Origin: a virus
Strand: one strand, 5' to 3'
IMG/VR virus record: IMGVR_UViG_3300036782_000148
Span: 1-41,827 of that record
DNA length: 41,827 nucleotides
Shown here in pieces: positions 1,166-39,559 of the stretch (position 1 is its first letter; every line of letters begins with the position of its first letter). Under the pieces are notes generated by a model that was given only the letters and a program-made list of their open reading frames with translations, ran no database searches and was not told the DNA's origin. Both the position numbers and the translations under genes were made by a program.

Positions 1166-1463
1166 CCTTGTCCCCTTGCGCAACTGTGAATATCTAGTGA
1201 GATTCTGTCACGCGCCGTTCATGATCACTTTACGGACTCTTGACGCGATCTTGGGCAACACGGACATACAGGCGATCTTTCCGTGAGCTTTATGAACACA
1301 ACTTCAATAGATCGTTGAAAACTCAAGGAAGTTGACGCCCTGTGATCTGCATCACGCACCCATGGCGCAACCCGTTGATGGTTACAGGTGACGCTCATTC
1401 GACTACAAACAGTGAGGACCACCTAGGAACGTCCCTAGGTGGTCCTACTGCAAGCGCAGTACG
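1166..1463 (-). promoter_or_regulatory. Non-coding leader region, AT-rich, with palindrome copy 1
   Basis: No supportable gene is seen here. The stretch is visibly richer in A and T than its surroundings. It contains an inverted repeat with arms CAACTTC/GAAGTTG (about 1298-1333) and, at 1415-1446, an extended palindrome around repeat copy 1. It probably holds the promoter for the 788-1165 operon, but no convincing -35/-10 pair stands out. The AT-rich dyad could also be a protein-binding or recombination site. Confidence 0.4.
1420..1441. repeat. Palindrome copy 1 (one change)
   Basis: Half-site CACCTAGGAAC, right half carries one change (GTCCC for GTTCC). Flanks AGGAC/GTCCT extend the dyad to 1415-1446. 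Lies after the stop of the 1464-1709 gene, so it could also act as a hairpin at the mRNA end. Confidence 0.9.
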
Positions 1464-1709
1464 TTACTTGGCGATCAGTTCGCCCCAACCCCCGCCGGTC
1501 GCGCGGTAAAGGGAAACGGCCTCGCCGGTCTCGCGAGTGAAGCACTGGTACGCGTCGGCCACGTTCTCAAAGACGAACTTGTGAACGCCGACGTTCACCC
1601 AGTAGTTAACCGCCGCAGCCTTAGCGCGGTACGCCCGCTCTTCCCAGCTACGGGGCAGGTCACCCGGAACGGTGTACAGCGCGCGGTCCGCCTCGGTGAG
1701 CTTGATCAT
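1464..1709 (-). CDS. Unknown 81-aa protein
   Basis: ATG at 1709 preceded by GGAAGGAA at good spacing. The protein is largely helical by composition (SWEERAYRAKAAAVNYWVNVGVHKFVFENVADAYQCFTRE) and ends in a Gly/Trp-rich tail. No family recognised. It is a single-gene unit: palindrome copy 2 and a copy of the leader element lie upstream, palindrome copy 1 lies downstream. The self-contained arrangement is shared by the next five genes. Confidence 0.75.
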   Translation of the reverse strand: MIKLTEADRALYTVPGDLPRSWEERAYRAKAAAVNYWVNVGVHKFVFENVADAYQCFTRETGEAVSLYRATGGGWGELIAK

Positions 1710-1728
1710 TTCGATTCCTTCCGTTTCC

Positions 1729-1754
1729 CTCGCGGCGTGTTCCGCTCGGTGTGG
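1729..1754 (-). promoter_or_regulatory. Leader element copy 1 (diverged)
   Basis: Diverged copy of the leader element (consensus on the minus strand GCCGAACGG, AACAC, GCCGAACGG) located 20-45 nt upstream of the start at 1709. Confidence 0.6.
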
Positions 1755-1786
1755 TTGAACCGTAGCACGTGCGTGCCGTGCTGCAC

Positions 1787-1808
1787 CACCTAGGAACGTC
1801 CCTAGGTG
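1787..1808. repeat. Palindrome copy 2 (one change)
   Basis: Same variant as copy 1 (GTCCC in the right half). Sits between the terminator of the 1924-2088 gene and the start of the 1464-1709 gene. Confidence 0.9.
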
Positions 1809-1837
1809 CTATCCGCTGTACGCCCGTCTGCGGGCAT

Positions 1838-1876
1838 GAAATAGCCCCGCCCGACCACGGGGCCGAACGGGGCTGT
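1838..1876 (-). terminator. Rho-independent terminator of the 54-aa gene
   Basis: On the minus strand AGCCCCG...CGGGGCT forms a stem followed by ATTTC. It lies 48 nt after the stop of the 1924-2088 gene. Confidence 0.7.
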
Positions 1877-1923
1877 GAGGCTGCGAGAGGGGCCGTCAGG
1901 CGCTCTGGCGACCCCCCACCAGC

Positions 1924-2088
1924 CTAGGCGGTCAGCCGGGCAAGCTCCGCACGCCAGTAGGCGAGTTCCCGCGCCTGCTCAAAGTAGATGGGCTGACCGA
2001 CCCACCCGCACGCCTCATAGCCGGACAGCGCCCGCTCAGTGTCGGCAACGTAGGTGCGGCACATCTCGATTTCCTGAGCCTTGGTCAT
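1924..2088 (-). CDS. Small 54-aa protein
   Basis: ATG at 2088 with GGAAGG at proper spacing; TAG at 1924. The protein (starting MTKAQEIEMCRTYVADTERA) looks all-helical with two Cys and many Arg/Glu, suited to a short coiled coil or helical hairpin. No family recognised. It has its own sigma70-like promoter, leader element and terminator, so it is transcribed as a single-gene unit within the small-gene array. No palindrome lies directly upstream of this one. Confidence 0.75.
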   Translation of the reverse strand: MTKAQEIEMCRTYVADTERALSGYEACGWVGQPIYFEQARELAYWRAELARLTA

Positions 2089-2106
2089 TGTGGTTCCTTC
2101 CGGTCA

Positions 2107-2133
2107 CCCCTCGGGCGTGTTCCCTCGGCGGTG
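2107..2133 (-). promoter_or_regulatory. Leader element copy 2 (diverged)
   Basis: Diverged copy keeping GAACACGCC, located about 20-45 nt upstream of the 2088 start and downstream of the -10 box. Confidence 0.6.
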
Positions 2134-2139
2134 AGGCCA

Positions 2140-2168
2140 TCTAAACACGAGAAACCCCCCGGTCGCAA
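2140..2168 (-). promoter_or_regulatory. Sigma70-like promoter for the 54-aa gene
   Basis: Minus strand -35 TTGCGA (2163-2168), 17-nt spacer, -10 TTTAGA (2140-2145). The -35 box overlaps the terminator hairpin of the upstream gene. Confidence 0.5.
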
Positions 2169-2180
2169 CCGAGGGGTTCT
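2150..2180 (-). terminator. Terminator of the 81-aa gene
   Basis: Minus strand AACCCCTCGG...CCGGGGGGTTTC stem with a short T-tract, about 20 nt after the stop at 2201. Confidence 0.7.
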
Positions 2181-2200
2181 CATACTTAAGGCGTAGCCGA

Positions 2201-2446
2201 TCAGGGAATGATTGCTTCAGTGGGGGAGACGACCCGCACGTCAATGAGCATCACGCCACGCTCAGCGGCCACACGCTCTACAACCTCGCGCACCTCGGGC
2301 AGCAACTCGTCAAGGTGGTTGGTGGTCACGACCGGAGTGGTCTTGGACCGGCCAAGCGGGTTGGCCTTACGGCGGGGACGGGGGGTGTTGGCAACCTCGC
2401 CCGTGAGCCGGACCTGATCCCGGAAACCTCCGCGACGGTTGTTCAT
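2201..2446 (-). CDS. Unknown 81-aa basic protein
   Basis: ATG at 2446 with AGAGGAAA upstream; an upstream in-frame GTG was rejected because the leader element and promoter lie there. The N-terminal 35 residues are Arg/Asn/Pro-rich and probably disordered (FRDQVRLTGE, RPRRKANPLGRSK); the C-terminal half (ELLPEVREVVERVAAERGVMLIDVRVVSPTEA would fold as helix plus strands) is compact. A nucleic-acid-binding role would fit the basic tail, but that is only inference. It is a single-gene unit with promoter, palindrome copy 3, leader element and terminator. Confidence 0.75.
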   Translation of the reverse strand: MNNRRGGFRDQVRLTGEVANTPRPRRKANPLGRSKTTPVVTTNHLDELLPEVREVVERVAAERGVMLIDVRVVSPTEAIIP

Positions 2447-2465
2447 ATTCTTTCCTCTCGTCTCT

Positions 2466-2490
2466 GCCGTTCGGCGTGTTCCGTTCGGCG
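2466..2490 (-). promoter_or_regulatory. Leader element copy 3 (canonical)
   Basis: Two copies of GCCGAACGG separated by AACAC on the minus strand. It starts about 8 nt downstream of the predicted transcription start and ends about 20 nt before the start codon. Confidence 0.7.
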
Positions 2491-2499
2491 ACAAACAGA

Positions 2500-2529
2500 A
2501 CAGTACACATGCGCGCCGCTCGTGTCCAA
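2500..2529 (-). promoter_or_regulatory. Sigma70-like promoter for the 2201-2446 gene
   Basis: Minus strand -35 TTGGAC (2524-2529), 18-nt spacer, -10 TACTGT (2500-2505). The palindrome copy 3 ends only 2 nt from the -35 box, as an operator would. Confidence 0.6.
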
Positions 2530-2531
2530 TC

Positions 2532-2553
2532 CACCTAGGAACGTTCCCAGGTG
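2532..2553. repeat. Palindrome copy 3 (one change)
   Basis: One change (CCCAGG for CCTAGG). Abuts the -35 box of the promoter at 2500-2529. Confidence 0.9.
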
Positions 2554-2569
2554 CTCATCCCCGGGCACG

Positions 2570-2603
2570 ACGTAGGGCCCCGGTCGAAACCGGGGCCCTA
2601 CGT
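2570..2603 (-). terminator. Perfect 14-bp hairpin after the 106-aa gene
   Basis: Arms ACGTAGGGCCCCGG and its exact complement with a 6-nt loop, 13 nt after the stop at 2616. No T-tract follows, so termination is inferred from position and stability. Confidence 0.6.
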
Positions 2604-2615
2604 CTAAGCGCCTAC

Positions 2616-2936
2616 TTACTCGCCGAACCGACCGGCGCGGCACTGCTCGCTGTCGCACGTGGCGTTCTCAAACAGCCCATCACAGTCCATCTCCCACGTA
2701 CGGGGGCGGGAACCACAGTACATGCACGCGTTGGCGGTCCACTCCTTCACGTCCCGGATCACCTGAATAAAGTTGGCGAGTTCGGGAGTCTTGCGCGTCT
2801 CGCGGATGATAAAGGCAGCGTGGCTTTCGGTGATCTTGCTTTCAAGCTCGCGGCTCACGTAGTACGCGTAGTAAGTCACCTCAACGTCCGTCGCGGTCTT
2901 GCCGGGGAAGTAGTTGATTCCCTTGGTGAGGCTCAT
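2616..2936 (-). CDS. Unknown 106-aa protein with C-terminal zinc-ribbon-like cysteines
   Basis: ATG at 2936 with AAAGGCGAG upstream. Residues 1-65 look like a mixed alpha/beta region (VEVTYYAYYVSRELESKI, FIIRETRKTPELANFIQVI). The C-terminal 40 residues carry CMYCG and CDSEQC, plausibly a structural zinc site. Function unknown. Single-gene unit with a strong promoter next to palindrome copy 4, a leader element, and a 14-bp hairpin downstream. Confidence 0.8.
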   Translation of the reverse strand: MSLTKGINYFPGKTATDVEVTYYAYYVSRELESKITESHAAFIIRETRKTPELANFIQVIRDVKEWTANACMYCGSRPRTWEMDCDGLFENATCDSEQCRAGRFGE

Positions 2937-2955
2937 GCGCTCGCCTTTCGTTCAC

Positions 2956-2981
2956 CCGCTCGGCGTGTTCCGTGCGGTGTG
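2956..2981 (-). promoter_or_regulatory. Leader element copy 4 (diverged)
   Basis: Keeps GGAACACGCCGAGCGG; located 20-45 nt upstream of the 2936 start. Confidence 0.6.
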
Positions 2982-2986
2982 CCCTC

Positions 2987-3016
2987 ACTATAGGCATACG
3001 GCGCGACGGGATGCAA
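2987..3016 (-). promoter_or_regulatory. Sigma70-like promoter for the 106-aa gene
   Basis: Minus strand -35 TTGCAT (3011-3016), 18-nt spacer, -10 TATAGT (2987-2992). It is the best -10 box in the array. Palindrome copy 4 lies 3 nt upstream of the -35 box. Confidence 0.7.
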
Positions 3017-3019
3017 CAC

Positions 3020-3041
3020 CACCTAGGAACGTTCCTAGGTG
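3020..3041. repeat. Palindrome copy 4 (perfect)
   Basis: Perfect 22-bp copy directly upstream of the promoter at 2987-3016 and downstream of a terminator. Confidence 0.95.
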
Positions 3042-3050
3042 CTCAAACGG

Positions 3051-3079
3051 AAAAACCCCCGGCATGGTCGCCGGGGGTC
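3051..3079 (-). terminator. Rho-independent terminator of the 43-aa gene
   Basis: Minus strand ACCCCCGGC...GCCGGGGGT followed by TTTTCC. Confidence 0.8.
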
Positions 3080-3094
3080 TCTCTAGGCTAGGGC

Positions 3095-3226
3095 TTACTC
3101 GGCGTACGCGCCGGTACCCTCGAACTCATCGCGGCACTCGGGCTCACAGAACAGATCACCGGGAGCGGCGGGGGCATCCTCACAGTTGGCACACGGACGG
3201 CCGCTGATCATGTCGAAAAAGTCCAT
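3095..3226 (-). CDS. Small 43-aa acidic zinc-binding-like protein
   Basis: ATG at 3226 with GAGGAGAG upstream; TAA at 3095. The protein (MDFFDMISGRPCANCE...) is acidic and carries C-x2-C and C-x3-C (CANC, CEPEC), enough for one zinc ion. It resembles the many tiny treble-clef/zinc-ribbon proteins of actinophages, but no function is known to me. It is a single-gene unit with its own leader element and terminator; a weak promoter (TTATCG, 19 nt, TACTGT at 3275-3305) overlaps the upstream gene's end. Confidence 0.75.
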   Translation of the reverse strand: MDFFDMISGRPCANCEDAPAAPGDLFCEPECRDEFEGTGAYAE

Positions 3227-3242
3227 CGTCTCTCCTCGGGTC

Positions 3243-3270
3243 GCCGTTCGGCGTGTTCCGTTCGGCGTGG
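3243..3270 (-). promoter_or_regulatory. Leader element copy 5 (canonical)
   Basis: Canonical copy, GCCGAACGG, AACAC, GCCGAACGG on the minus strand, 17-44 nt upstream of the 3226 start. Confidence 0.7.
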
Positions 3271-3564
3271 TCACACAGTAGCACGCTCTTGCGTGTGCTC
3301 GATAACCTCACTCTTGTGCCGAGTGCGTATCAGCGTCCACCCGTCCGCGCGCAACTCCTTATGGAGCGGGCCGGTTATCTCGAAAACGGCATCAAGGTTC
3401 GGGAAGATCGTACGCGTCTCGTCCGGTTCCTCACCGTGCGTGCGGTCGATAAACGTAAGAGCCTTACGATCGTCGCCCGCCCGGTCGCTACGGCGTACGC
3501 GGATGATGAACCAATCCAGCGCGTCAGGGTCCGTCGCGCTCTGCCGTGACCATTCCCAATCCAT
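3271..3564 (-). CDS. Unknown 97-aa protein
   Basis: ATG at 3564 with AAAGGGG upstream. The protein begins MDWEWSRQSATDPDALDWFI and is highly charged; beta-like segments WFIIRVRRS, KALTFIDR, AVFEITGPLH and WTLIRTRH suggest a small alpha/beta fold. No family recognised. Single-gene unit downstream of palindrome copy 5 and leader element copy 6. A -10-like TAGGTT lies next to the palindrome so that the palindrome would cover the -35 region. Confidence 0.75.
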   Translation of the reverse strand: MDWEWSRQSATDPDALDWFIIRVRRSDRAGDDRKALTFIDRTHGEEPDETRTIFPNLDAVFEITGPLHKELRADGWTLIRTRHKSEVIEHTQERATV

Positions 3565-3581
3565 CGGTGCCCCTTTCGTTC

Positions 3582-3609
3582 GCCGTCCGGCGTGTTCCGT
3601 TCGGCATGG
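3582..3609 (-). promoter_or_regulatory. Leader element copy 6
   Basis: Near-canonical copy (one half GCCGGACGG) in the 5' leader of the 3271-3564 gene. Confidence 0.65.
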
Positions 3610-3624
3610 ATGAACCTAGCACAC

Positions 3625-3646
3625 CACCTAGGAACGTTCCTAGGTG
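3625..3646. repeat. Palindrome copy 5 (perfect)
   Basis: Perfect copy between the terminator of the 31-aa gene and the 3271-3564 gene. Confidence 0.95.
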
Positions 3647-3652
3647 CTACGA

Positions 3653-3687
3653 GAAAACCCCCGGCGGGCCGTAGCCAACCGGGGGTC
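3653..3687 (-). terminator. Rho-independent terminator of the 31-aa gene
   Basis: Minus strand ACCCCCGG...CCGGGGGT followed by TTTC, 11 nt after the stop at 3698. Confidence 0.75.
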
Positions 3688-3697
3688 ACTCATCTAG

Positions 3698-3793
3698 CTA
3701 GCGCTTGACCCAAACAAAGATATGGGCCCGCTTAGGGTGTCCGTCGCACGCCTTGCCGTGCGCCTTGCAGTACAACTCTCGAATCTCCGGCAT
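3698..3793 (-). CDS. 31-aa microprotein with Cys/His pattern
   Basis: ATG at 3793 preceded by AGGGAGG at optimal spacing; TAG at 3698. The product (MPEIRELYCKAHGKACDGHP...) has C-x2-H and C-x2-H, the spacing of a miniature zinc knuckle, then a basic-hydrophobic tail. Function unknown. It has its own palindrome (copy 6), a -10-like TTACTGT at 3836-3841 and a terminator, but lacks the leader element seen in neighbouring units. The strong ribosome site and private terminator make it a convincing gene despite its size. Confidence 0.7.
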   Translation of the reverse strand: MPEIRELYCKAHGKACDGHPKRAHIFVWVKR

Positions 3794-3863
3794 GTTGCCT
3801 CCCTTGTGGGCCCGCCCTTGTTGGCGTCGAGACCGACAGTAACACGACTCAGCGGGGAGGCAC

Positions 3864-3885
3864 CACCTAGGAACGTTCCTAGGTG
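3864..3885. repeat. Palindrome copy 6 (perfect)
   Basis: Perfect copy starting right after the TGA of the 3887-4069 gene and upstream of the 31-aa gene. Confidence 0.95.
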
Positions 3886-3886
3886 C

Positions 3887-4069
3887 TCAGGGTCGCGCGC
3901 CTACTAGCTCCGCCCGTCCCTGGAAAGGGTCCACGCGGATACCGGCAGCGTTCACAGCCTCAGCGGCAACGGCGATCACGTCGCCCCGATGCTGAGTTTC
4001 CGGTGCCGATAGGTCGAGTTGCACCACCTTGCACCCCGTAGGGAACTCCACACGCCACACGTTCCGCAT
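3887..4069 (-). CDS. Unknown 60-aa protein
   Basis: ATG at 4069 has a strong CAGGAGGGG site, which is why I prefer it to the upstream in-frame GTG at 4117. The product starts MRNVWRVEFPTGCKVVQLDL and includes an Ala/Val-rich helix (DVIAVAAEAVNAAGI). It looks like a small alpha/beta domain with two or three strands around one helix. Last gene of the ThyX operon, 54 nt after the deaminase stop. No family recognised. Confidence 0.7.
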   Translation of the reverse strand: MRNVWRVEFPTGCKVVQLDLSAPETQHRGDVIAVAAEAVNAAGIRVDPFQGRAELVGARP

Positions 4070-4123
4070 GACCCCTCCTGACTCTAGACGAACTCCCAGT
4101 GTCTCAAGTGAGCGCACCCGCTG

Positions 4124-4507
4124 TCAAACCGGCGTCACTACGCGTGCGATCCCTGCGGACTCAATTAGCGTCGCGCACTGTGGGCACGGTGCCCGCGTCA
4201 CGTACAGCGTAGACCCCGGTAGATCCTCGGGGCGTGCTCGCGTAATCGCGTTGAACTCCGCATGGTTTGCGGCACAGTTGGCATAGTTACTGTCCGGCGC
4301 ACAAGTCTCGCGGCTCATCTTCCCGCGCGGACAGTTACCGGCGCTAGCACACCCCGGGATACCGGCAGGCAAGCCGTTGTAGCCGGGGGTAACCCTGTGG
4401 TCCCGAGAGACCAACAGGGCCCCCACCTGTGCGCGTGTGCAGTCGGCGCGAGTAGCCGCCCACCCGGCACCAGCAAGGTAGTAGCTATCCCAATCCGGGC
4501 GCGTCAC
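4124..4507 (-). CDS. Deoxycytidylate (dCMP) deaminase-like protein
   Basis: A 127-aa zinc-dependent cytidine/deoxycytidylate deaminase. The signature is complete: the HAE motif (NCAANHAEFNAI, about residues 78-89) supplies the zinc His and the catalytic Glu, and PCPQC (about residues 107-111) supplies the two zinc cysteines. The family converts dCMP to dUMP, the substrate for thymidylate synthase, and ThyX lies in the same operon, so together they feed dTTP synthesis. The start is GTG at 4507 in a 4-nt overlap (GTGA) with the upstream gene. A further Cys cluster (CASAGNC, CAPDSNYANC) may bind a second zinc, as in phage dCMP deaminases. Confidence 0.9.
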   Translation of the reverse strand: MTRPDWDSYYLAGAGWAATRADCTRAQVGALLVSRDHRVTPGYNGLPAGIPGCASAGNCPRGKMSRETCAPDSNYANCAANHAEFNAITRARPEDLPGSTLYVTRAPCPQCATLIESAGIARVVTPV

Positions 4508-4842
4508 CGGTACCTCTGTTCAAACTCGATGTAGACGCTGTTCGACGCGCGAGGGTGGATCACAAACGAGTGATCACCCTGTATGCACAGTTTCCCATCT
4601 TCCACGTGCGCCATGATTGAGCGCCTTAGCCGTCCGTCATCCGGCAGCGTGTGAAACGCGATACGCGCACCACGGGGAAGGGGCCTATCCTCGCTCGTGT
4701 AGTCCCTCACGAACGTGTCAGCGTCCGGCACGTTCCCGCGCATCTCCTCTATGCGCTGCCGTTCAACATTCAGCGCACGCCGCAGGCTGGACAGTTCCTC
4801 TTGTGCCCACTTGGGCAAACGCACCTCGCGCGGGTCACGCAT
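4504..4842 (-). CDS. Unknown 112-aa protein with N-terminal coiled coil
   Basis: ATG at 4842 overlaps the previous gene by 8 nt. Residues 8-38 (LPKWAQEELSSLRRALNVERQRIEEM) form a charged helix; the rest (RIAFHTLPDDGRLRRSIMAHV, KLCIQGDHSFVIHP, SVYIEFEQR) looks like a small beta domain. It resembles the helix-plus-beta small proteins that are common between nucleotide-metabolism genes in actinophages. Function unknown. Confidence 0.75.
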   Translation of the reverse strand: MRDPREVRLPKWAQEELSSLRRALNVERQRIEEMRGNVPDADTFVRDYTSEDRPLPRGARIAFHTLPDDGRLRRSIMAHVEDGKLCIQGDHSFVIHPRASNSVYIEFEQRYR

Positions 4843-5176
4843 TCTTGCCTGCCTTGGGCTTGTTGAAGTGTCGGCGTACCGTGCGGATTAGGCGCTCTAT
4901 CGCGTCCCGATCGTCAGCGCTCACGCCGTACGACTCGCGGAGCCACGTACGCGCGGACTTGGCAAACTCGGACGGGTCCGTAATCCGGGTCATGTTGCTG
5001 AAGTTGGAATCATCGAACGGCGAGACGCACGAGCAGCCGTTATCGGTGTCCCAGAACAGCGCACCATCTGACGCGCGCTTGAACACGCCCAACATGTTGA
5101 ACTCATATCCGCCGATGGTGTCCACCGTGCCGATAATCTCGGCGGCGTTGTCCTCGGGGCCGTAGTAGATGTTCAT
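4835..5176 (-). CDS. Unknown 113-aa protein
   Basis: ATG at 5176 overlaps the preceding stop (ATGA). N-terminal half: MNIYYGPEDNAAEIIGTVDT then a predicted beta-rich part ending in NGCSCVSPFDD, with a C-x-C; C-terminal half: a basic helix (WLRESYGVSADDRDAIERLIRTVRRHFNKPK). The layout (short metal-binding-like part, then basic helix) would allow nucleic-acid contact, which is inference. No family recognised. Confidence 0.75.
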   Translation of the reverse strand: MNIYYGPEDNAAEIIGTVDTIGGYEFNMLGVFKRASDGALFWDTDNGCSCVSPFDDSNFSNMTRITDPSEFAKSARTWLRESYGVSADDRDAIERLIRTVRRHFNKPKAGKNA

Positions 5177-5316
5177 GCGGAAACCTCGCCATTCTCAAAC
5201 GGCCCGTAGTAGTCGCGGTACATGTCGCTATCGGCCCACTCGTTAGCCTGCGATTCGGAAATAGTCACACCCTTAATGACCATGTCCGAATACCAACCCT
5301 CAGTAAGTACGTACAC
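5173..5316 (-). CDS. Small 47-aa protein
   Basis: GTG at 5316 follows GAGGAG at 5-nt spacing; the stop overlaps the next ATG. The product starts MYVLTEGWYSDMVIKGVTIS and is rich in Tyr, Asp and Glu. Overlapping stop/start pairs on both sides and the good ribosome site support it as a real coupled gene. Function unknown. Confidence 0.65.
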   Translation of the reverse strand: MYVLTEGWYSDMVIKGVTISESQANEWADSDMYRDYYGPFENGEVSA

Positions 5317-5318
5317 AG

Positions 5319-5405
5319 TCACTCCTCATCGTCCGGGTAGTCATAAATGCAGCTATCGCCGCCGCAGTGTCGGCAATCGTCGTCATCTTCAATCCACGCG
5401 ATCAC
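5319..5405 (-). CDS. 28-aa acidic Cys-containing microprotein
   Basis: GTG at 5405 overlaps the ThyX stop (GTGA), and the TGA at 5319 lies inside the ribosome site of the next gene. The product contains an unbroken run of Asp residues and CRHCGGDSC, a plausible metal-binding knuckle, with an acidic tail. Coupling to ThyX argues for translation; without it the ORF would be too short to call. Function unknown. Confidence 0.55.
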
Positions 5406-6100
5406 TTGTAAGGCTCCTCGGGGATGTCCTGAACGCACGCGGGAGCGATGTTCCGCAGGCGAGCGAGGATGAGCCCCGCAAACTCCCTGATCTCAGCGTC
5501 TGCGGCCACGTGGTGACGCTTGCCCAGCGTGTCACGCCATGCACGCAGATTGCCCGTAACCACCATGTCTACCGGGGCGGCGTTCGGCAGGATCGCCCGT
5601 GCAGCCTCGCGCGCTTGCTTACGCTTGTGTCCACGCTTGGTCAGCAGCGAAACCGCAGCGTCATAAGCCTTGAGAGATGCGCGGTAGTCGTTGCGGAACG
5701 GGCGCTCTAGGTCAGTGCCGCGAATGGCGGGCGGAATGACCGGCTCTGTGTCGGCGTAGTTGACGTAGCGCTGAGACACAACCGAGAACGAAAGGTGTCG
5801 GTGTCGGGTCAACTCGGCGAGCAGCGCACGCGATACGCCCCGAACGAGGAACGAGACCGACGCGTGTTCCATGACGCTGTAATGCCCCTGCCCAATGATG
5901 TTGGCGAGGTAATCGGCGTTCGCCGCAGTCTTGGGGTTGGGCCGGTTGAACGACTTGTAACAGATGCGGCCCGCAGCTTCGGCAAGCGCGTCAGCATCGG
6001 TCGCGTACGTCCGTCCGTTATCGGGCCACGCGTCATACCCGTACGCTTCCCACATCGGAAGATCACCAAGGGTGGTAGCGGCCATCACGTCAACGTGCAT
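5402..6100 (-). CDS. thyX: Flavin-dependent thymidylate synthase ThyX
   Basis: A 232-aa ThyX. The diagnostic RHR-x7-S motif is intact ([14 protein letters not shown], about residues 98-111) and the upstream [21 protein letters not shown] segment is typical of the family. ThyX makes dTMP from dUMP using FAD, NADPH and methylenetetrahydrofolate; the dUMP can come from the dCMP deaminase four genes downstream. The C-terminal part ([20 protein letters not shown]) also fits, giving full length. ATG at 6100 has a GAGGAGAG site; palindrome copy 7 ends 22 nt upstream of the start codon. It heads a six- to seven-gene overlapping operon. Confidence 0.96.
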
Positions 6101-6122
6101 TTTCTCTCCTCAAGGGGGTGAC

Positions 6123-6144
6123 CACCTAGGAACGTTCCTAGGTG
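6123..6144. repeat. Palindrome copy 7 (perfect, extended to 34 bp)
   Basis: Flanks GGTGAC/GTCACC extend this copy to a perfect 34-bp palindrome at 6117-6150. It ends 17-22 nt upstream of the thyX ATG, leaving room only for the ribosome site. Confidence 0.95.
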
Positions 6145-6179
6145 GTCACCGGGGTTGTGCTGCTAACGGATGATCTTTC

Positions 6180-6335
6180 CTACTCGCCCACGATGAAACG
6201 AGCTAGGTCTAGTACGTCCTCGGGCGTCTTGTCCAAACGCAAGTCACTACCGTCTAGCAGCGCGTGAGCAATACGCCATGCGTCCGCACGTTCCGCGAAC
6301 GTCTCGTCAGTCTCGCCAATATCAACCATGACCAT
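6180..6335 (-). CDS. Small 51-aa acidic protein
   Basis: ATG at 6335 overlaps the previous TGA (TGATG); TAG at 6180. The product (starting MVMVDIGETDETFAERADAW) is acidic and probably two helices. A second in-frame ATG at 6329 is an alternative start. Coupled expression with the two genes upstream is likely. No family recognised. Confidence 0.65.
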   Translation of the reverse strand: MVMVDIGETDETFAERADAWRIAHALLDGSDLRLDKTPEDVLDLARFIVGE

Positions 6336-6472
6336 CACTCGTCGGTGTCGAACTCATCGAGCAATTCCGGCGAGGAAATTTCCTCACGGTCCCACTCGTC
6401 CCACACGCTCAGCGTCGGTGCCTCGCCCGCGTCGTATCCATCGAGCCCCGGAATGTGCTTCTTGCCGTTCAC
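6335..6472 (-). CDS. Small 45-aa acidic protein
   Basis: GTG at 6472 overlaps the preceding TGA (GTGA), and the stop overlaps the next ATG. After a short basic start (MNGKKHIPGLDGYDAG) the chain is strongly acidic (SVWDEWDREE, FDTDE). Highly acidic small phage proteins often mimic DNA or bind basic host proteins; here that is only a thought. No family recognised. Confidence 0.6.
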   Translation of the reverse strand: MNGKKHIPGLDGYDAGEAPTLSVWDEWDREEISSPELLDEFDTDE

Positions 6473-6639
6473 GCGTTCAGCTCCTCGCCCAGAGTCTTGA
6501 AAAGGTCCCAAGCCTTACGGTCGCTGACAACCACGGTTGCGATCGTCTCGCCGTCGGCGTTCTTAACGTTCAGGTCAAACCCGGCAAGCGTGCGGGTCGC
6601 CTCAATGGTTCCGGCATCCTGCGTTGCGAAAGTCGGCAC
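6469..6639 (-). CDS. Unknown 56-aa protein
   Basis: GTG at 6639 lies 6 nt after GAGGAGAG, which decides the start. The product has beta-like stretches (TIEATRTLAGFDLNVKN, ETIATVVVSDRKA) and a short C-terminal helix (WDLFKTLGEELN), suggesting a single small alpha/beta domain. It heads a chain of three overlapping small genes. No family recognised. Confidence 0.7.
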   Translation of the reverse strand: MPTFATQDAGTIEATRTLAGFDLNVKNADGETIATVVVSDRKAWDLFKTLGEELNA

Positions 6640-6650
6640 TCTGTCTCTCC

Positions 6651-6842
6651 TCAGAATGTGGCGGCCCACTCGGCAAGAGTGAGTGCGCCTTTACTCAAAT
6701 TGCATTCAGCGCAAGCGGGGACAACGTTGCTCAGCACGTCGCCCCCGCCCTTACTGATCGGGGTTACGTGGTCTAGATGCTCGGCCGGTGCGTCGCAGTA
6801 GCAGCAACCGCCCCAGCGGGGGAACACGTCGCCTTGCCGCAC
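6651..6842 (-). CDS. HNH endonuclease domain, possibly split by a frameshift
   Basis: This 63-aa frame encodes a complete HNH core: CCYC, then AEHLDHVTPISKGG, then SNVVPACAECNLSKG, ending TLAEWAATF. It is very similar to the C-terminus of the HNH protein at 12934-13365, so one is probably a duplicate of the other. It overlaps the 3' end of the 6773-7243 gene in another frame. No strong ribosome site precedes the GTG at 6842 (a second GTG is at 6827), so it may be made by coupling or frameshift, or be a relic of a single disrupted gene. Confidence 0.6.
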   Translation of the reverse strand: MRQGDVFPRWGGCCYCDAPAEHLDHVTPISKGGGDVLSNVVPACAECNLSKGALTLAEWAATF

Positions 6843-8043: not shown

Positions 8044-8078
8044 GGTGCGTTTCCTTCCGGTTTTCCGTCTCTCACCGG

Positions 8079-8100
8079 TCAGTGAGTGAGTGGGTAAAGC
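8079..8100 (-). promoter_or_regulatory. Directional element copy 1
   Basis: Minus strand GCTTTACC, then CA, then CTCACTCACTGA. Lies 36-57 nt upstream of the sigma-like gene start. Confidence 0.65.
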
Positions 8101-8436: not shown

Positions 8437-8458
8437 CACCTAGGAACGTTCCTAGGTG
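8437..8458. repeat. Palindrome copy 8 (perfect, extended to 30 bp)
   Basis: Flanks GGAC/GTCC extend it to 8433-8462. On the minus strand it lies 15 nt after the DNA polymerase stop and is followed within 6 nt by a run of six T, so it could double as a terminator. Confidence 0.95.
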
Positions 8459-8476
8459 GTCCCCCTCAAGTCGCGG

Positions 8477-29879: not shown

Positions 29880-29890
29880 GGGCCACCCCC

Positions 29891-30672: not shown

Positions 30673-30683
30673 GTCGTGAGGGC

Positions 30684-31669: not shown

Positions 31670-31672
31670 CGC

Positions 31673-32364: not shown

Positions 32365-32365
32365 G

Positions 32366-32800: not shown

Positions 32801-32802
32801 GA

Positions 32803-33771: not shown

Positions 33772-33797
33772 GCCAAATACCTTTCGTTAGACGCCCG

Positions 33798-34295
33798 TTA
33801 GAAGCGGACGCGCTTAGCGATTGCCGCCGCGAGCTTTACGGGGTCAATCTCGTCTGAATCCGTAGACTTGGCGTCAGCGCCACCGCCCACAGTGGGATTA
33901 GGTCGCGCGGGAGTTCCCTTGCGTGCCTTGGTCTGGTCGGCAATCTTGGACGCTGCCGCTAGTAGCTCATCCTTTGTCGCACCCTGAATCAGGGAAACCA
34001 CATCGCTAGATAGGCCGGTCTCCTCGGCAACCTCGCGGAGCATGAGTCCGCGCATTGCCTCATCCCGTTCACGCTGTGCCGCCGAAAGCTCATCACGTAG
34101 CTTTTCCTCGGCGGTCTTGCGCGCCTCTTCAGCGTCCTTATGCGCCTGCACGATCGGGGCAACCTCGGCTAGCTGAGCCTTAAGCCGCTCAATCTCCGTC
34201 GTAGCCTCAGCGTCCACAGCGGGAGTCTCCGCCGTTTCGGTCTCGGCCGTCTCGGTCGCGCCGGTTTCCTCGGCAGGCTTGATCTCATCACTCAC
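33798..34295 (-). CDS. Capsid scaffold protein
   Basis: 165 aa, strongly acidic start (EETGATETAETETAETPAVD), then a long coiled coil (IERLKAQLAEVAPIVQAHKD, RKTAEEKLRDELSAAQRERDEAM) and a C-terminal basic helix (PVKLAAAIAKRVRF) that would contact the coat protein. ATG at 34295 with CAGGAGAG. Palindrome copy 18 lies 17 nt upstream of the start. Confidence 0.9.
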   Translation of the reverse strand: MSDEIKPAEETGATETAETETAETPAVDAEATTEIERLKAQLAEVAPIVQAHKDAEEARKTAEEKLRDELSAAQRERDEAMRGLMLREVAEETGLSSDVVSLIQGATKDELLAAASKIADQTKARKGTPARPNPTVGGGADAKSTDSDEIDPVKLAAAIAKRVRF

Positions 34296-34311
34296 TAGGA
34301 ACTCTCCTGAC

Positions 34312-34333
34312 CACCTAGGAACGTTCCTAGGTG
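34312..34333. repeat. Palindrome copy 18 (perfect)
   Basis: Perfect copy in the 39-nt gap between the MuF-like gene and the scaffold gene, adjoining its ribosome site. Confidence 0.95.
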
Positions 34334-34334
34334 A

Positions 34335-35132
34335 CTACGAGCGACCCTCAACAAGTCGCCGGAATTGAAGGGGATCGCCGCCCGACTCACGCCAAAGCGC
34401 CTCATAGCGCGTAACGTTGGCGGTCGGACGTGACTTACGGGAATAGACAGGTTCCATCCAGCACTGACACGAACGGTGAACCTCAGCACCTCGGGCGCCC
34501 TTGGCCTTACCGGTGCTGAGACTGACGCGCTGCCCCTTGTAGCCGCTACGGAACGAATCCTCTTTGTAGACAGCTCCACGGGTGGCGAGCATTGCGCAGA
34601 ACGAGCAAGCGGCACCCGAGCAGCAACGGCGGTAACCGATACAGCGCCGGTCACGGTCAATGCCGCTTGAGACCACGTCACGACCGGGGGAGAGGATGCG
34701 GCCCGTTAGGTTGCCCAGTTGGCCGGACAGTGCGAGCCGCTTAGCCTCTTCCACGGACACGCCGGAAGCGATCAGACGACGCACGTAAGCGGGTCCATAC
34801 GCCTCTATGACGCCCTCAAACTCGCCCGGTAGGGCCAAGCTAGGGCGAGCGACTGATAGGCCGTCTACGAGCTGCCCAAGGGCTTTCAGCTCAGCGCGCC
34901 GGAAACGCTCAAAGTAGCGAAACGCTGTGTTGGCGCTAGCGGTCTGCGCTGAGCTGCAAAGCTCCTCGGCCGTGTTCACGTAGCGGAGCCACGTTGCAGC
35001 GTCCTCGGGGTCAACCTCGGCCCATGCAACCTGTAGCTTGCTCAGCGCGTCGCCGGTAAGCGCACGCTGTGCCCGCTGGTGTGCAGCCGTTAGCCGCTCG
35101 CCCTCATCGCTAACCGCCAACGGGCCCACCAT
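34335..35132 (-). CDS. MuF-like minor head protein
   Basis: 265 aa. N-terminal helical part (LTAAHQRAQRALTGDALSKLQVAWAEVD, SANTAFRYFERFRRAELKAL) and a C-terminal CSGAACSFCAMLATRGAVYKED...HRSCQCWMEPVY cysteine cluster, as in the VG15/MuF minor head proteins that sit with the portal. It overlaps the portal 3' end by 23 nt in another frame. ATG at 35132 (MVGPLAVSDEG) is chosen because the upstream part of the frame is a shadow of the portal gene. Confidence 0.82.
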   Translation of the reverse strand: MVGPLAVSDEGERLTAAHQRAQRALTGDALSKLQVAWAEVDPEDAATWLRYVNTAEELCSSAQTASANTAFRYFERFRRAELKALGQLVDGLSVARPSLALPGEFEGVIEAYGPAYVRRLIASGVSVEEAKRLALSGQLGNLTGRILSPGRDVVSSGIDRDRRCIGYRRCCSGAACSFCAMLATRGAVYKEDSFRSGYKGQRVSLSTGKAKGARGAEVHRSCQCWMEPVYSRKSRPTANVTRYEALWRESGGDPLQFRRLVEGRS

Positions 35133-36501
35133 CCTGCGGCGGGAACGGGTCTGCGGTGTGCTGACCGGTGAGCAACTGGGCGACGAGATCCGTAGAAGCG
35201 CTCTTATCGCGCATCTTCCGCCACGCCTGCACATCGAACGAGGTAACGCCCGGTACACGCTCCCACAGAGCCTCAGCGGGAACGCCGAGCATCTGAGACA
35301 GCTTGCCCAACGCGTCAACCGTCGCGGACAACGAGCGAGCCTCAGCGTCATGCCACACGATCCGTGCGTCTGTGTCGCCTGCGCGGTCGTCTTGTCCCTC
35401 AACCTCAGCGGCTAGCCGTAGAACCTGTTCCCAGCTTTCGCCGAACATCAGTTGCCGCTCATGCACCTTGCGGGATAGCCCAGACTCAGCAGCCGTAAGC
35501 GCGTCGGCCGAAATGTTGACCATTCCGCCGAGTAGGTAATGGGGCGGAACCTGCGCAATCGCGCTCATGGCCTTAACCGCAGCCTCACGAGACGAGAGGT
35601 AGCCGGTTAGGTCCGTCTGTTCAAACTCCCCAAACTTGACATCCTTGTTTTCGACCATCCACAGCCGGTCAACGGCAGCGCGGAAAGTCTCGACAGGATG
35701 ACCGGTCTTAGGGTCGCGCGGAATGCTAATGCCGGTCGCCCAACGCTGCCGGAATGCCGAGTAAGACTCAGCAATCTTCATATTCAGCGTGGTTTCATTG
35801 AGCCGATCCTGAATCGGAATCAGGGGGAAGACTTCCCCAAGCTCATGGGGGCGCGTGTCCGGCGCATCGGCCCACCGGTTCCGGAACGGCACGATAGGGC
35901 AGCGCGTAAGTCCGTGCGGCTGCACAGAGACAACCTGCCACGTCTCGCGGTTATCGTGCTCGCCCTCGGGGGTCGTGACCTCGGTAACGGCGTAGTCGTC
36001 CCACACCTGCCACCGCTCAAGCGTCTTGCCCTCGGCAACCTTGACGCGCCCCATGTAACGGATAGCGCCGTCTAGCCACTCGCTATCAGGTTCGGCAGAG
36101 ACGCCAGTCACAGACAGCGGGGACATGGGCCGGATGGCCGGTCCGTTGTCCCCAGGGGTAACGGCAACGTAGCTACGGCCGAACGTGAGCGCAGCACGGT
36201 GCACGGCGTTCTGTCGGCTGTCTAGCTGATTCGCTGCCCAGTAGCCCCACGGCTCTAGGTCGTCAGGGTTCTTGGTGCTGCGGTAGCCCTCAACGCGAAG
36301 GTTCTGCGCAACAACGCCGACGATCAGCGGTAGCCAATTCTCAAGCGACCGCGCGACGAGACGCCGGAACTCTGCCTCAGCACGCTTGGGCAAGTACGGC
36401 GCATCCTGAATGCCCCTCATGTACTTGTCCACGCGGATTAGTTCCGGCATCTCTGCCTTGCGCTGAGCTAGCCCCATGGCTAGCAGCGTCTTTGGGTCCA
36501 T
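35110..36501 (-). CDS. Portal protein (SPP1 gp6-like)
   Basis: 463 aa. LPLIVGVVAQNLRVEGYR, GRSYVAVTPGDNGPAIRPMSPLSVTG, HELGEVFPLIPIQDRLNETTLNMKIAESYSAFRQRWATG and AIAQVPPHYLLGG are conserved portal segments; the ring of 12 forms the DNA channel. ATG at 36501 (MDPKTLLAMG) is preferred; a GGGAG lies 11-12 nt upstream. Palindrome copy 19 is 28 nt upstream of the start. Confidence 0.92.
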   Translation of the reverse strand: MDPKTLLAMGLAQRKAEMPELIRVDKYMRGIQDAPYLPKRAEAEFRRLVARSLENWLPLIVGVVAQNLRVEGYRSTKNPDDLEPWGYWAANQLDSRQNAVHRAALTFGRSYVAVTPGDNGPAIRPMSPLSVTGVSAEPDSEWLDGAIRYMGRVKVAEGKTLERWQVWDDYAVTEVTTPEGEHDNRETWQVVSVQPHGLTRCPIVPFRNRWADAPDTRPHELGEVFPLIPIQDRLNETTLNMKIAESYSAFRQRWATGISIPRDPKTGHPVETFRAAVDRLWMVENKDVKFGEFEQTDLTGYLSSREAAVKAMSAIAQVPPHYLLGGMVNISADALTAAESGLSRKVHERQLMFGESWEQVLRLAAEVEGQDDRAGDTDARIVWHDAEARSLSATVDALGKLSQMLGVPAEALWERVPGVTSFDVQAWRKMRDKSASTDLVAQLLTGQHTADPFPPQDGGPVGG

Positions 36502-36528
36502 GTTTGCGGGTCTCCCTGTGGCCGGAAG

Positions 36529-36550
36529 CACCTAGGAACGTTCCCAGGTG
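36529..36550. repeat. Palindrome copy 19 (one change)
   Basis: One change (CCCAGG), same variant as copy 3. In the gap between large terminase and portal. Confidence 0.9.
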
Positions 36551-36569
36551 CTAGGGGTAGGTGCCCGCG

Positions 36570-38189
36570 CTAGAACCCCCAAACGGTAGCGTCGCCGGGC
36601 TTGGTGCGTTTCTCGAACACGCCTGCCTCAATGGCCTTACGGCGTGCCTCGCGTGCCAGCACAAGAGCGGCGGCAGCGTCCACCTTGCGGTCAGACTCGC
36701 GCGATTCCTTGCCAAAGCTCACGCCATACGCGTTCGGGCGACGACGAGCGTTTTTCAGGTGGGTAACTAGGCGCGGGTCGTCAGCAACGGTCAATGACCG
36801 ATCCTCGAAAGCTGCAACCGTCGATTCAGCAGCAGCGGTAAAATCCTTGACCCTGCGCCGCATGTCGAACGCGACGGAATGACCGGGGGATGCCTTGGTA
36901 AACAGCGTCTCGCGGTAGTCCTCGGCCCACCGGTCTACGTAGCCCTCAAAGAACGCTAGGTCAGCGAAGAACGCCACAACGTCCCAGCGTTCAAAGGCCG
37001 TTCGTACGGCAGTGTCTACCGCCTCGCGGTCAACCTCCCACCCGTGACCGTCCGGGCCGTCCGGCTTCTGCCAGATGCCTAGCGGCCAACTGTGGCCGGT
37101 GCTCACGTCGCAGGCGATCAACGCTGTTGCGTCATGCCCGCGCGAGCCATCGAAGCCAAGCGTGATCATCTCGCCATCGTCGGGCAAGTCCATACGTGCT
37201 GCGGCGGCATCAACGTCTAGCGGCTCTAGCCACGCGTCCGAGGATGCGACCACTTGGTTTAGGTAGAACCTGCGCTTTTCCTGCGGGTCCGCCGTCGGGT
37301 CGTAAATCTCGGCCATGAGCCGATCAAGGTCAACCCACGTGGAATCGCCGTAAGCGGCCCTAAGACCGCCTCGCACGGCTTCCGGGTCCGATGGTTCCCA
37401 AGACTCCGCCGGAGCCTCTACACAGTCGTACAGGACGTCATCTAGGCCACCGTCAGACTTGCGCGCTAGGTGCGCTTCGTACTCGGCGCGGCCTACCGTC
37501 TCTTCGCTGGGATCGTGCGCGTTCGTCGTGAGAACAGCGCGACCACCCACCTTGGCAAGATTTCGCTTGATGACCTGAATCATCTTTTGGCCACCCTGCG
37601 AGTACAGCCAATGATGGATTTCGTCCCCAACCACGAAATTCGGTCGGGCACCCTCAAGCGAGGCAGACGACGCGGTAACCGGCTCAATCTTGCCGATACC
37701 GTGGTTGAACTGAATCAACGTCTTGCCGGGGTCAATGCCATAGTCGGCAACGGCCGGACCCTCAGCGAGCATTCCGCGCACCGGCTCAAGGGTGTTCATG
37801 ACCTGTTGATACGAAACAGCGGCCATCTGCACCCAAGGGGCGTTACGGCGTTTCCCGCTGGGGTTCCAGTTACCGAACGGGTCAATGACACCGGGGCCGT
37901 CAGGGTCCACCACGCACGGGCCGACAAACTCAATCAGCGCGAATGCGCCGAGCAAGGGGGACTTTCCCCACCCCTTTGAACGTCGCAGAACACCCATGCG
38001 GTAAAGAAACTTGTTGTTGTCGTCCAGCGCGTAAAACCAGACCAAGAAACGGACTTGTTCACGCGTGAAAACGAACGGCTCGCCCGCTCGGGGGCCGTCC
38101 GGCTGTCGGACATAGCGGAGCGTCCACGCGAGGATGTGCCACCCTAGGGACCGCTTAGGCCAACCATCGGGAAGATTGCCAGTCTGCAC
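36570..38189 (-). CDS. Terminase large subunit
   Basis: 539 aa. ATPase motifs: RRSKGWGKSPL (Walker A-like), FVVGDEIHHW (Walker B/catalytic Glu), LTTNAHDP (coupling motif). Nuclease domain: MITLGFDGSRGHDATALIACD, FADLAFFEGYVDRW and the late ESDRKVDAAAALVLA. It packages DNA into proheads and cuts it. GTG at 38189 with GGGAGG. Follows the small terminase by 14 nt. Confidence 0.95.
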   Translation of the reverse strand: MQTGNLPDGWPKRSLGWHILAWTLRYVRQPDGPRAGEPFVFTREQVRFLVWFYALDDNNKFLYRMGVLRRSKGWGKSPLLGAFALIEFVGPCVVDPDGPGVIDPFGNWNPSGKRRNAPWVQMAAVSYQQVMNTLEPVRGMLAEGPAVADYGIDPGKTLIQFNHGIGKIEPVTASSASLEGARPNFVVGDEIHHWLYSQGGQKMIQVIKRNLAKVGGRAVLTTNAHDPSEETVGRAEYEAHLARKSDGGLDDVLYDCVEAPAESWEPSDPEAVRGGLRAAYGDSTWVDLDRLMAEIYDPTADPQEKRRFYLNQVVASSDAWLEPLDVDAAAARMDLPDDGEMITLGFDGSRGHDATALIACDVSTGHSWPLGIWQKPDGPDGHGWEVDREAVDTAVRTAFERWDVVAFFADLAFFEGYVDRWAEDYRETLFTKASPGHSVAFDMRRRVKDFTAAAESTVAAFEDRSLTVADDPRLVTHLKNARRRPNAYGVSFGKESRESDRKVDAAAALVLAREARRKAIEAGVFEKRTKPGDATVWGF

Positions 38190-38203
38190 CGGTCAACCTC
38201 CCT

Positions 38204-38665
38204 CTAGCCGGTAAACATCTCCTTGTACGCGCTCAGGTCAAGCACGGCAGCGCTAGGGCCCTCAGCGGGCTTGGTCTGCGCTGTGCTGGTCATCCGGCCC
38301 CGTAGCCGGTCAAGATGCGTCGCACCTAGTAGGGATTCGTTTTGGCGAATCTCCTTGATGATCTCCAGTGCGGCGCGCATCTTCCGCGTGTCCTCGGCAT
38401 TCGCTGACACGGTAAGTCTGTGGTAGCTGTCCACCAGCGGGAGGAGCGCCAAGAGACGCTGCCAATCCGTCGCGGTGAAGTGCGCAGCCTGCCCGCTCTC
38501 GGTCCACGTGGACCACCAATCACGCGTGCCCTTAAGCCAACGCTTGGGGGTCGGGAGTGGGGGAGCGGCTACGCCGTCCAGCGGGGGAGCGTCGGTGTCT
38601 GCGCCGAACGTGTCGGCGTTCCGCCTGCGGGCATTCTCCTTGGGCGGTGGCCCGAATCCTGCCAC
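38204..38665 (-). CDS. Terminase small subunit
   Basis: 153 aa. GTG at 38665 with GAGGGGG. Proline-rich N-terminus, then WWSTWTESGQAAHFTATDWQRLLALLPLVDSY and RKMRAALEIIKEIRQNESLLGATHLDRLRGRM, typical of P27/actinophage-type small terminases with a helical oligomerisation part. It recognises the packaging site. Directly upstream lies a non-coding stretch. Confidence 0.85.
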   Translation of the reverse strand: MAGFGPPPKENARRRNADTFGADTDAPPLDGVAAPPLPTPKRWLKGTRDWWSTWTESGQAAHFTATDWQRLLALLPLVDSYHRLTVSANAEDTRKMRAALEIIKEIRQNESLLGATHLDRLRGRMTSTAQTKPAEGPSAAVLDLSAYKEMFTG

Positions 38666-38839
38666 GCTGTCACCCCCTCGCGCGTGTGCGCGCGTATTGA
38701 GAACCTAGGGCCGAACCTTCCAGACCCGTACACGAACAAGGCTGCTATTGGCCCCCGGTCAGCGTGATTATCAAAAGGGGGGCACCCCCCACCCTTTCGC
38801 TAAAAACTTCACGCGGGGTAACTTGCAACATTGATTTTT
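38666..38839. other. Non-coding stretch, possible packaging (cos) region
   Basis: A 174-nt gap between the HNH and small terminase genes. It contains alternating purine-pyrimidine DNA (CGCGCGTGTGCGCGCG type, about 38680-38696), a GGGGGGCACCCCCC dyad (38777-38790) that may act as terminator with TTTT on the minus strand, and no ORF. cos sites of HK97-like phages lie at this place; assignment is positional only. Confidence 0.4.
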
Positions 38840-39220
38840 TCACTCTTCGTGATCGCGTTGCGCGTTCAACATTGCTTGTCTCATCGAACCGCTTTGTTCG
38901 CGCTCTCGCTCGCGCTTGGGTTGCTTAGCGGTCTTGGCTTGCGCTCCTTCACGAGCGCTCTTACGCGCGTGATGAAAGCGGCACAGCGCTTGCAGGTTCG
39001 ATGGGTTGTGGTTGTCGCCATGCTCGATGTGGTCAACGTCAGACGCAGGCATACCGCATAGCGTGCCAGTGTCCACCCGTACCCACTGGCATAGCCAACG
39101 GTCACGAGCAAGCACAGCAGCACGGCGCGTACGCCAGTCCACCGGTAGGCGACCCCTACGCGTGGACCCTGACCAACCACCAGGGGCACCCAAGATAAGC
39201 ACCCCCGTATGTACAACCAC
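38840..39220 (-). CDS. HNH endonuclease next to terminase
   Basis: About 126 aa from GTG 39220 (an inner GTG is possible). GSTRRGRLPVDWRTRRAAVLARDRWLCQ leads into SDVDHIEHGDNHNPSNLQALCRFHH, a full HNH signature with the zinc pair C (WLC, LC). HNH proteins encoded beside terS in HK97-type phages are required for cos cleavage together with the terminase, so this is probably a packaging nuclease rather than a homing enzyme. Its C-terminus is highly charged. Confidence 0.9.
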   Translation of the reverse strand: MVVHTGVLILGAPGGWSGSTRRGRLPVDWRTRRAAVLARDRWLCQWVRVDTGTLCGMPASDVDHIEHGDNHNPSNLQALCRFHHARKSAREGAQAKTAKQPKREREREQSGSMRQAMLNAQRDHEE

Positions 39221-39264
39221 CTGCCGTATAGGGGCCCCCTAAAGAAAGGACCCCCCGTATGTGT

Positions 39265-39345
39265 ACCCGCTGAGGGATTCGAACCCCCACGCCTTACGGC
39301 AACGCGTCCTAAGCGCGTCGTGTCTCCCAGTTCCACCAAGCGGGC
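39265..39345 (-). tRNA. tRNA-Leu (anticodon TAG)
   Basis: Minus strand. Acceptor GCCCGCT pairs with AGCGGGT (first pair G-U); anticodon stem ACGCG/CGCGT around loop CTTAGGA, anticodon TAG; long variable arm GCCGTAAGGC; T-arm GGGGG-TTCGAAT-CCCTC type. CCA is not encoded. Reads CUA (and wobble CUN) leucine codons, rare in high-GC hosts. Confidence 0.93.
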
Positions 39346-39559
39346 TTAAGGGTTACTCGCCGCTCACTTTGCTAGGGACTAGCTAGCCAGTGTTGAGCCG
39401 GTTTCACCCAGGGTGCATATCGTCGCGCCAGTCACGGCCCTATTGTCTGCACCGGTCTTTGGCACCTAGGAACGTTCCTAGGTGGATAGGCAGGCGAACC
39501 ACTTCACCCCTGCCACGGGCACCCCGACAACAATACGCATTCGGTGCCGTTCCTGACGC
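39346..39559. other. Spacer between the two tRNA genes
   Basis: 214 nt without an ORF worth calling. It holds palindrome copy 20 at 39463-39484; nothing else recognised. Confidence 0.6.
39463..39484. repeat. Palindrome copy 20 (perfect)
   Basis: Perfect copy between tRNA-Asn and tRNA-Leu. Confidence 0.95.

Follow-up and report, generated by a model that had tools for sequence, protein, structure and literature searches.

The viral DNA analyzed in this work, a record of 41,827 bases (IMG/VR IMGVR_UViG_3300036782_000148) whose full length is hereafter referred to as the window, carries all its nameable genes on the - strand, and the start codon of its serine integrase gene lies at the end of the record; repeats were looked for at the window ends and were 10-mers at best. 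The window belongs to the phiC31-like Streptomyces phages. At the DNA level, its nearest named relatives are the Streptomyces phages Shady, Sycamore and Shaeky, followed by phiBT1; TG1 and some Arthrobacter phages match over shorter stretches. Here we describe a 22-bp palindrome repeated 20 times along this genome, together with a gene of the phiC31 c-repressor family (17429-18721, - strand) whose product very probably binds it. Eight relatives were compared, namely Shady, Sycamore, Shaeky, phiBT1, TG1, AbbeyMikolon, phiC31 and Sebastisaurus, with AbbeyMikolon and Sebastisaurus left out of the counts of shared borders, promoters, symmetry and further base pairs.

Palindromic sites and gene borders

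A scan allowing up to 3 mismatches returned exactly 20 palindromes in the window, 15 of them exact and 5 with one change (1420, 1787, 2532, 27232 and 36529), and 0 in 100 dinucleotide shuffles, which reproduces the number, quality and coordinates given in a preliminary description of this DNA. A looser scan (at least 15 of 22 letters in agreement with the consensus) added 16887 and 33700, both scoring 15/22, which are not near-palindromic and were not counted; from the lists made at the same threshold for the relatives, Sycamore 6742 and TG1 18357 (also 15/22) were left out, and for Shady 23 of 24 hits were used.

According to the open reading frame (ORF) list and an ortholog map, the palindromes stand at gene ends, two of them (18768 and 23798) overlapping coding sequence. 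Six putative operators occupy the early right arm: 1420-1441 (one change), which forms a terminator-like hairpin stem and for which no promoter-like neighbor was found; 1787-1808 and 2532-2553 (one change each), 3020-3041 and 3864-3885, each with a promoter-like sequence downstream on the - strand; and 3625-3646, which overlaps the -35 side of such a sequence on the same strand. The palindrome at 6123-6144 is located upstream of thyX and has six further pairs beyond the 22 bp, while that at 8437-8458, after the DNA polymerase gene, provides the stem of a terminator-like hairpin followed by a T run (8464-8431, - strand). Next come 10361-10382, between the primase and DNA polymerase genes; 13642-13663, between the homologs of Shady S30 and S31 and behind a terminator-like hairpin; and 15173-15194, between the exonuclease and recombination directionality factor genes. 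The repressor gene is flanked by 17354-17375 downstream and by 18768-18789 upstream of its promoter, and the stop codon of ORF 18783-19190, which lies upstream, falls within the latter. The remaining sites are 21244-21265, upstream of the endolysin gene; 23798-23819, upstream of the tail fiber gene, where an 86-codon ORF (23784-24044) reads through in frame; 27232-27253 (one change), between the tape measure and distal tail genes; 30651-30672, after the major tail protein gene; 34312-34333, after a protease-like gene; 36529-36550 (one change), between the terminase large subunit and portal genes; and 39463-39484, between the tRNA-Asn and tRNA-Leu genes. An Rfam scan of the window gave two tRNAs and nothing else. 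The ortholog map and the tRNAs thus agree with the earlier statement that the sites mark gene boundaries in the early, lysis, tail, head and tRNA regions.

For comparison among phages, 29 gene borders were labeled by gene, with labels set by the analyst: 39463 was assigned to the border upstream of the HNH gene despite the intervening tRNA-Leu gene, the phiBT1 site after primase to that upstream of DNA polymerase despite the intervening gp9.1, and phiC31 gp16 was taken as ThyX. Sites were present at 13 labeled borders in the window and at 11 in phiC31, 9 being common to both (P 0.0026), and the window shared 8 borders with phiBT1 (P 0.0021), 9 with TG1 (P 0.00059) and 11 with Shady (P 2.4e-5).

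A repressor gene of the phiC31 family

The ORF at 17429-18721 (- strand; 430 codons as listed, GTG start) matches Pfam PF25746, 'Streptomyces phage repressor protein c' (E 8.5e-45; 153.9 bits, with a cut-off of 27), and is located between the dNMP kinase and exonuclease genes, the position of the c repressor gene in phiC31 and phiBT1. Its product matches the repressors of phiBT1 (E 1e-12) and TG1 (5e-11) and a 'hypothetical protein' of Shady (6e-90), with identities of 45% to the Shady, 45% to the Sycamore and 49% to the Shaeky homologs, and of 24% over the alignment to the phiC31 repressor. Viral contigs searched with the window or Shady repressor yielded no relatives; the phiBT1 repressor as query gave 8 loci.

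A likely repressor promoter (TTGACA-19-TAATGT; 18706-18750, ends approximate, - strand) starts 18 bases after the palindrome at 18768-18789 and is conserved in Shady, Shaeky and a further phage, L018. Since the -10 hexamer of this promoter overlaps the GTG start given in the ORF list, translation must begin further in. The phiC31 repressor is made in several forms from internal starts. In the window, a short form (17429-18448, - strand) is predicted from an internal ATG preceded by aggagg, codon 92 of the ORF as listed. In the repressor alignment, from which internal starts were chosen by eye, the ten family members shown have ATG or GTG at this codon, which corresponds to the annotated start of AbbeyMikolon. 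In three phages, a small, Cys-rich gene judged by eye to be HNH-like precedes the repressor gene (18783-19190 in the window, 5624-6376 in L018 and 5508-5936 in L017), and in all three its stop codon falls in or at the end of a palindrome.

An AlphaFold model of the repressor, built on a five-sequence alignment, is nearly all helical, and its confident part spans about residues 101 to 350. Foldseek gave 0 matches at E<=0.001 in the PDB, and the search of solved structures returned three weak matches, the best (E 0.017) being a designed protein. In a viral structure library, three matches were obtained at E<=0.001, namely the Nesbitt immunity repressor and proteins of Vash and Shawty, which also match the phiBT1 repressor. 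No NCBIfam family was assigned to the repressor, and no helix-turn-helix family was detected in it by Pfam (E up to 1) or PHROGs.

Palindromes in related phages

The relatives were searched for palindrome families without a prior motif. One dominant family was recovered in Shady, Sycamore, Shaeky, phiBT1, TG1, AbbeyMikolon and phiC31, with 11-16 members before rescanning, and a degenerate one of only 3 members in Sebastisaurus. The multi-copy palindromes of 7 of the 8 relatives are unlike that of the window or merely akin to it: of the 11 half-site letters, 10 are held in common with Shady, 7 with Sycamore, 6 each with AbbeyMikolon, phiBT1 and phiC31, 5 with Shaeky, and 4 each with TG1 and Sebastisaurus. 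The operators thus keep their places, whereas their sequence changes jointly across the copies of each phage.

The repressor of phiC31 binds about 18 inverted repeats, and our search recovered 16 sites in its genome. That centered at 19208 coincides with inverted repeat B/B', which the GenBank record X12865 places in front of the repressor gene (the coordinate offset between X12865 and the phiC31 genome was computed for this analysis); a literature search identified, by title, no papers on the phiC31 operators.

A second IMG/VR phage (44,999 bases) carries 28 copies of the window's palindrome, 26 of them exact, at the same kinds of gene border, and its family repressor is 49% identical to that of the window. 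Perfect symmetry, present in 15 of the 20 window sites, marks these two phages rather than the family, since site cores are often asymmetric in the relatives. Clustering that ignores orientation places 12 of 20 sites of the window on one strand, and 13/23, 12/21, 18/26, 8/16, 8/15 and 12/16 in the relatives, as counted with no control run.

Promoter-like sequences beside the early sites

The early right-arm sites adjoin promoter-like sequences pointing in the direction of the genes, as do 5 of the 6 in the window. In four phages, 26 of 33 early right-arm sites had a neighbor with a promoter-like score of at least 7, versus 4 of 57 for the remaining sites and 4.1% for random windows. Of the four non-early scoring sites, three score 11, among them the one at the repressor promoter of the window. 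A stricter pattern, TGNTANNNT within 50 nt, was found at 18 of 33 early sites and at 2 of 57 others, both before repressor genes. The arm limits and the score were fixed after inspection of these four phages and the second IMG/VR phage was scored afterwards, giving 9 of 10 early sites versus 3 of 18 others at a score of at least 7. In the window, 14 sites have no promoter-like sequence of this score alongside.

A shared leader near cggaacacgccg follows the early promoters in the window (sites 1787, 2532, 3020 and 3625; leader region about 1700-3600) and in Sycamore, and Shady and Shaeky have 'gagggaac..gcccgaggg'-like leaders there; this leader may be a conserved 5' leader hairpin.

Copies in Streptomyces chromosomes

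The exact 22-mer was found in 29 stretches of Streptomyces genomes. In 25 of these, it lies about 20 bases behind a tRNA gene, at the apex of a long terminator-like hairpin; by the sequence of the tRNA 3' end, 17 are tRNA-Pro and 8 tRNA-Arg (ARAGORN: 10 Pro-CGG and 5 Arg-CCT), and a short T run stands behind most tRNA-Pro copies. Two of the other 4 stretches belong to one S. megasporus contig with four sites near the contig end, which is prophage-like. A search of plasmids with the palindrome returned three Sphingobium records only, at E 9.

Among 199 Streptomyces genomes, 25 carry a copy with at most 3 mismatches, a single one in 24 and four in the 25th; the preliminary description would have been refuted by non-phage DNA as rich in the palindrome as the phage, and these genomes are not. 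With the same letters in reversed order, the palindrome was found in 0 of the 199 genomes, and the phiBT1 palindrome, within 3 mismatches, in 6 of 101. A host orphan repressor was considered as an explanation for the chromosomal sites and rejected: no homolog is encoded in the 29 stretches, and PF25746 is present in 3 of the 199 genomes. In one prophage-like genome of the host set, the PF25746 gene is preceded, at about 300 bases, by a phiBT1-like palindrome. In two Streptomyces genomes (loci L083 and L085), phiBT1-like palindromes around base 1501 lie just upstream of a gene that resembles, by eye, one for a GntR-type regulator.

Host tRNA-Pro flanks were compared at 110 of 133 listed places, chosen by the analyst; the omitted flanks include those of genome G001 and one of G034, which hold the palindrome or a near copy, while a one-mismatch copy in G031 was included. 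Terminator-like hairpins are common in these 110 flanks, with varying apices. As controls, 1000 permuted half-sites were used, either freely or with the first four letters kept (second figure hereafter). The best flank match of the window palindrome, 21/22, was reached by 0 and 1 of 1000 permuted half-sites. For the relatives, the best matches were 19 for Shady (0 and 2.0%), 17 for phiBT1 (1.0 and 0.9%), phiC31 (1.3 and 1.3%) and AbbeyMikolon (2.0 and 12.2%), 16 for TG1 (4.1 and 4.1%), 15 for Sebastisaurus (5.3 and 8.1%), and 14 for Sycamore (43.5 and 68.3%). Several phage palindromes therefore have near matches in tRNA-Pro flanks, and that of Sycamore does not. The sequence around the palindrome differs between phage and host in the inspected flanks, hence there is no sign of direct exchange. 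Behind the tRNA-Pro genes of Shady, Sycamore and Shaeky themselves, at about 10-20 bases, there is a site (44079, 43670 and 44604, respectively) in an arrangement resembling the host tRNA-Pro copies.

The exact palindrome at host tRNA terminators is the surprise of this analysis. Phage operators and host tRNA terminator hairpins might share sequence for a biological reason, either because operator specificities were drawn from host terminators, or because the repressor of a prophage sits on a host tRNA terminator and alters read-through; we regard this as a speculative and rather improbable proposal. Under an origin from host terminators, some phage sites may still double as terminators, as at 8437.

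Discussion

With the integration of these findings, we propose that the phiC31-type immunity repressor encoded at 17429-18721 (- strand) has the 20 palindromes as its operators, a reading to which we assign a probability of about 0.9, binding and silencing being deduced from sequence. The preliminary description had proposed a new repressor or silencer system with symmetric sites in both early and late regions. Its symmetric network is well supported, and its stoperator component is plausible for the 14 window sites that lack a promoter-like neighbor; the novelty of the system is not upheld, since the PF25746 match and the 9 of 13 borders shared with phiC31 point to a phiC31-type system whose site is new. 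The same family match rules out an entirely new class of repressor; the system is of a known kind, and its operator sequence is new.

In a lysogen, a symmetric oligomer of the repressor would bind each palindrome. At the early right-arm sites, the repressor would act at the promoter-like sequences and block initiation, whereas at the promoterless sites among the replication, lysis, tail, head and tRNA genes, bound repressor would stop polymerase during elongation or reinforce silencing. Repressor synthesis would in turn be adjusted through the site that precedes the repressor promoter. We infer oligomeric state, roadblock action and autoregulation alike from sequence features: as the early sites adjoin promoter-like sequences, the remaining ones would probably be roadblocks (stoperator-like), and this last step is drawn by analogy with mycobacteriophage L5 and Streptomyces phage R4, the promoter-linked sites probably being operators in the usual sense.

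Several observations weigh against this interpretation. Site cores are asymmetric in 22 of 23 sites of Shady, 20 of 21 of Sycamore and 26 of 26 of Shaeky. The stricter -10 pattern is present at 2 of 10 early sites of the second IMG/VR phage (0 of 18 others), and a generic promoter scan of the window, which has other limits and detected none of the promoter-like neighbors, gave 0 promoters in 1-20000 and 1 in 20001-40000, below shuffles. No known DNA-binding domain was recognized in the repressor by Pfam or by structure search in the PDB. Lastly, an operator would need neither the G-U lean of the departures from symmetry (88 to 35) nor the hairpin extensions found at some sites.

The latter observations bear on the alternative that the palindromes function chiefly in the transcript, where hairpins between genes would serve termination, processing or RNA stability, and that the repressor uses other sites. 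In line with it, the hairpin stem and T run at 8437 lie at a place where a terminator is annotated in Shady and Shaeky, four or more further pairs extend the palindrome at 27 of 137 sites in seven phages, departures from symmetry on the sense strand favor G-U over A-C in each of the seven, and the host copies of the 22-mer form the apex of tRNA terminator-like hairpins. However, the dyad continues through its center and leaves no loop, fewer than four further pairs are present at 17 of the 20 window sites (at least four at the other 3), and the terminator scan is overall not above shuffles (15 vs 14.8, and 10 vs 16.6). Moreover, structure alone would not require the same 22 letters to recur 20 to 28 times, and the G-U excess could result from strand-biased mutation, the copies within a phage being related. 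We thus hold a mainly RNA-level role to be very unlikely, and read the G-U excess as a slight indication that some sites also serve as hairpins.

Even less probable is that the sites serve as operators of another protein, such as a host regulator or the phage sigma-like protein encoded at 7240-8283, which has a sigma-70 region 2. The promoters at the early sites, the presence of that gene and the palindromes in hosts would fit such a protein; nevertheless, the phiC31 site at the same border is an inverted repeat annotated before the repressor gene, and most sites lie far from promoter-like sequences, unlike the sites of an activator. A mobile or host-derived repeat with no regulatory role, which the exact 22-mer in 29 Streptomyces stretches could suggest, is practically discarded, as 24 of 25 matching genomes hold one copy and related phages keep the positions while changing the sequence, which is not expected of a spreading repeat.

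Among known systems, phiC31, phiBT1 and TG1 have a c repressor of the same PF25746 family in the same gene order, and phiC31 resembles the window in its palindromes across early and late regions, one of them before the repressor gene, and in the ACGT at the consensus center. It differs in the half-site (6 of 11 letters in common) and in the repressor (24% identity), and the window sites are more uniform, with 15 of 20 perfect. Shady, Sycamore and Shaeky, the nearest by DNA, have related repressors, with different half-sites and less symmetric cores.

The L5 system of cluster A mycobacteriophages also has many sites genome-wide, located at promoters in some cases and between genes in others (PMC9283540). 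These are asymmetric 13-mers bound by a monomer and oriented with transcription (PMC9283540), and in cluster A sites one orientation predominates (PMC6550527), whereas the window has orientation-free 22-bp palindromes and a repressor of another family. We reject membership in the L5-type stoperator family in view of the repressor, in which the N-terminal helix-turn-helix of L5-type repressors was not detected by Pfam or PHROGs, and of the symmetry of the sites. The repressor-stoperator system of R4, likewise a Streptomyces phage, is described as blocking the polymerase at many sites (PMC10276819).

With our results, the phiC31 operator system comes to include a branch of Streptomyces phages in whose records (Shady, Sycamore and Shaeky) the sites are not described as operators and the repressor genes are annotated 'hypothetical protein'. 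They also bear on a long-standing problem, namely how the specificity of a repressor can change in step with that of some 20 sites: one operator is common to two repressors of 49% identity, and the Sycamore repressor, at 45% identity, uses another. Since the places persist while the sequences change together, such natural pairs make in-step change of specificity testable.

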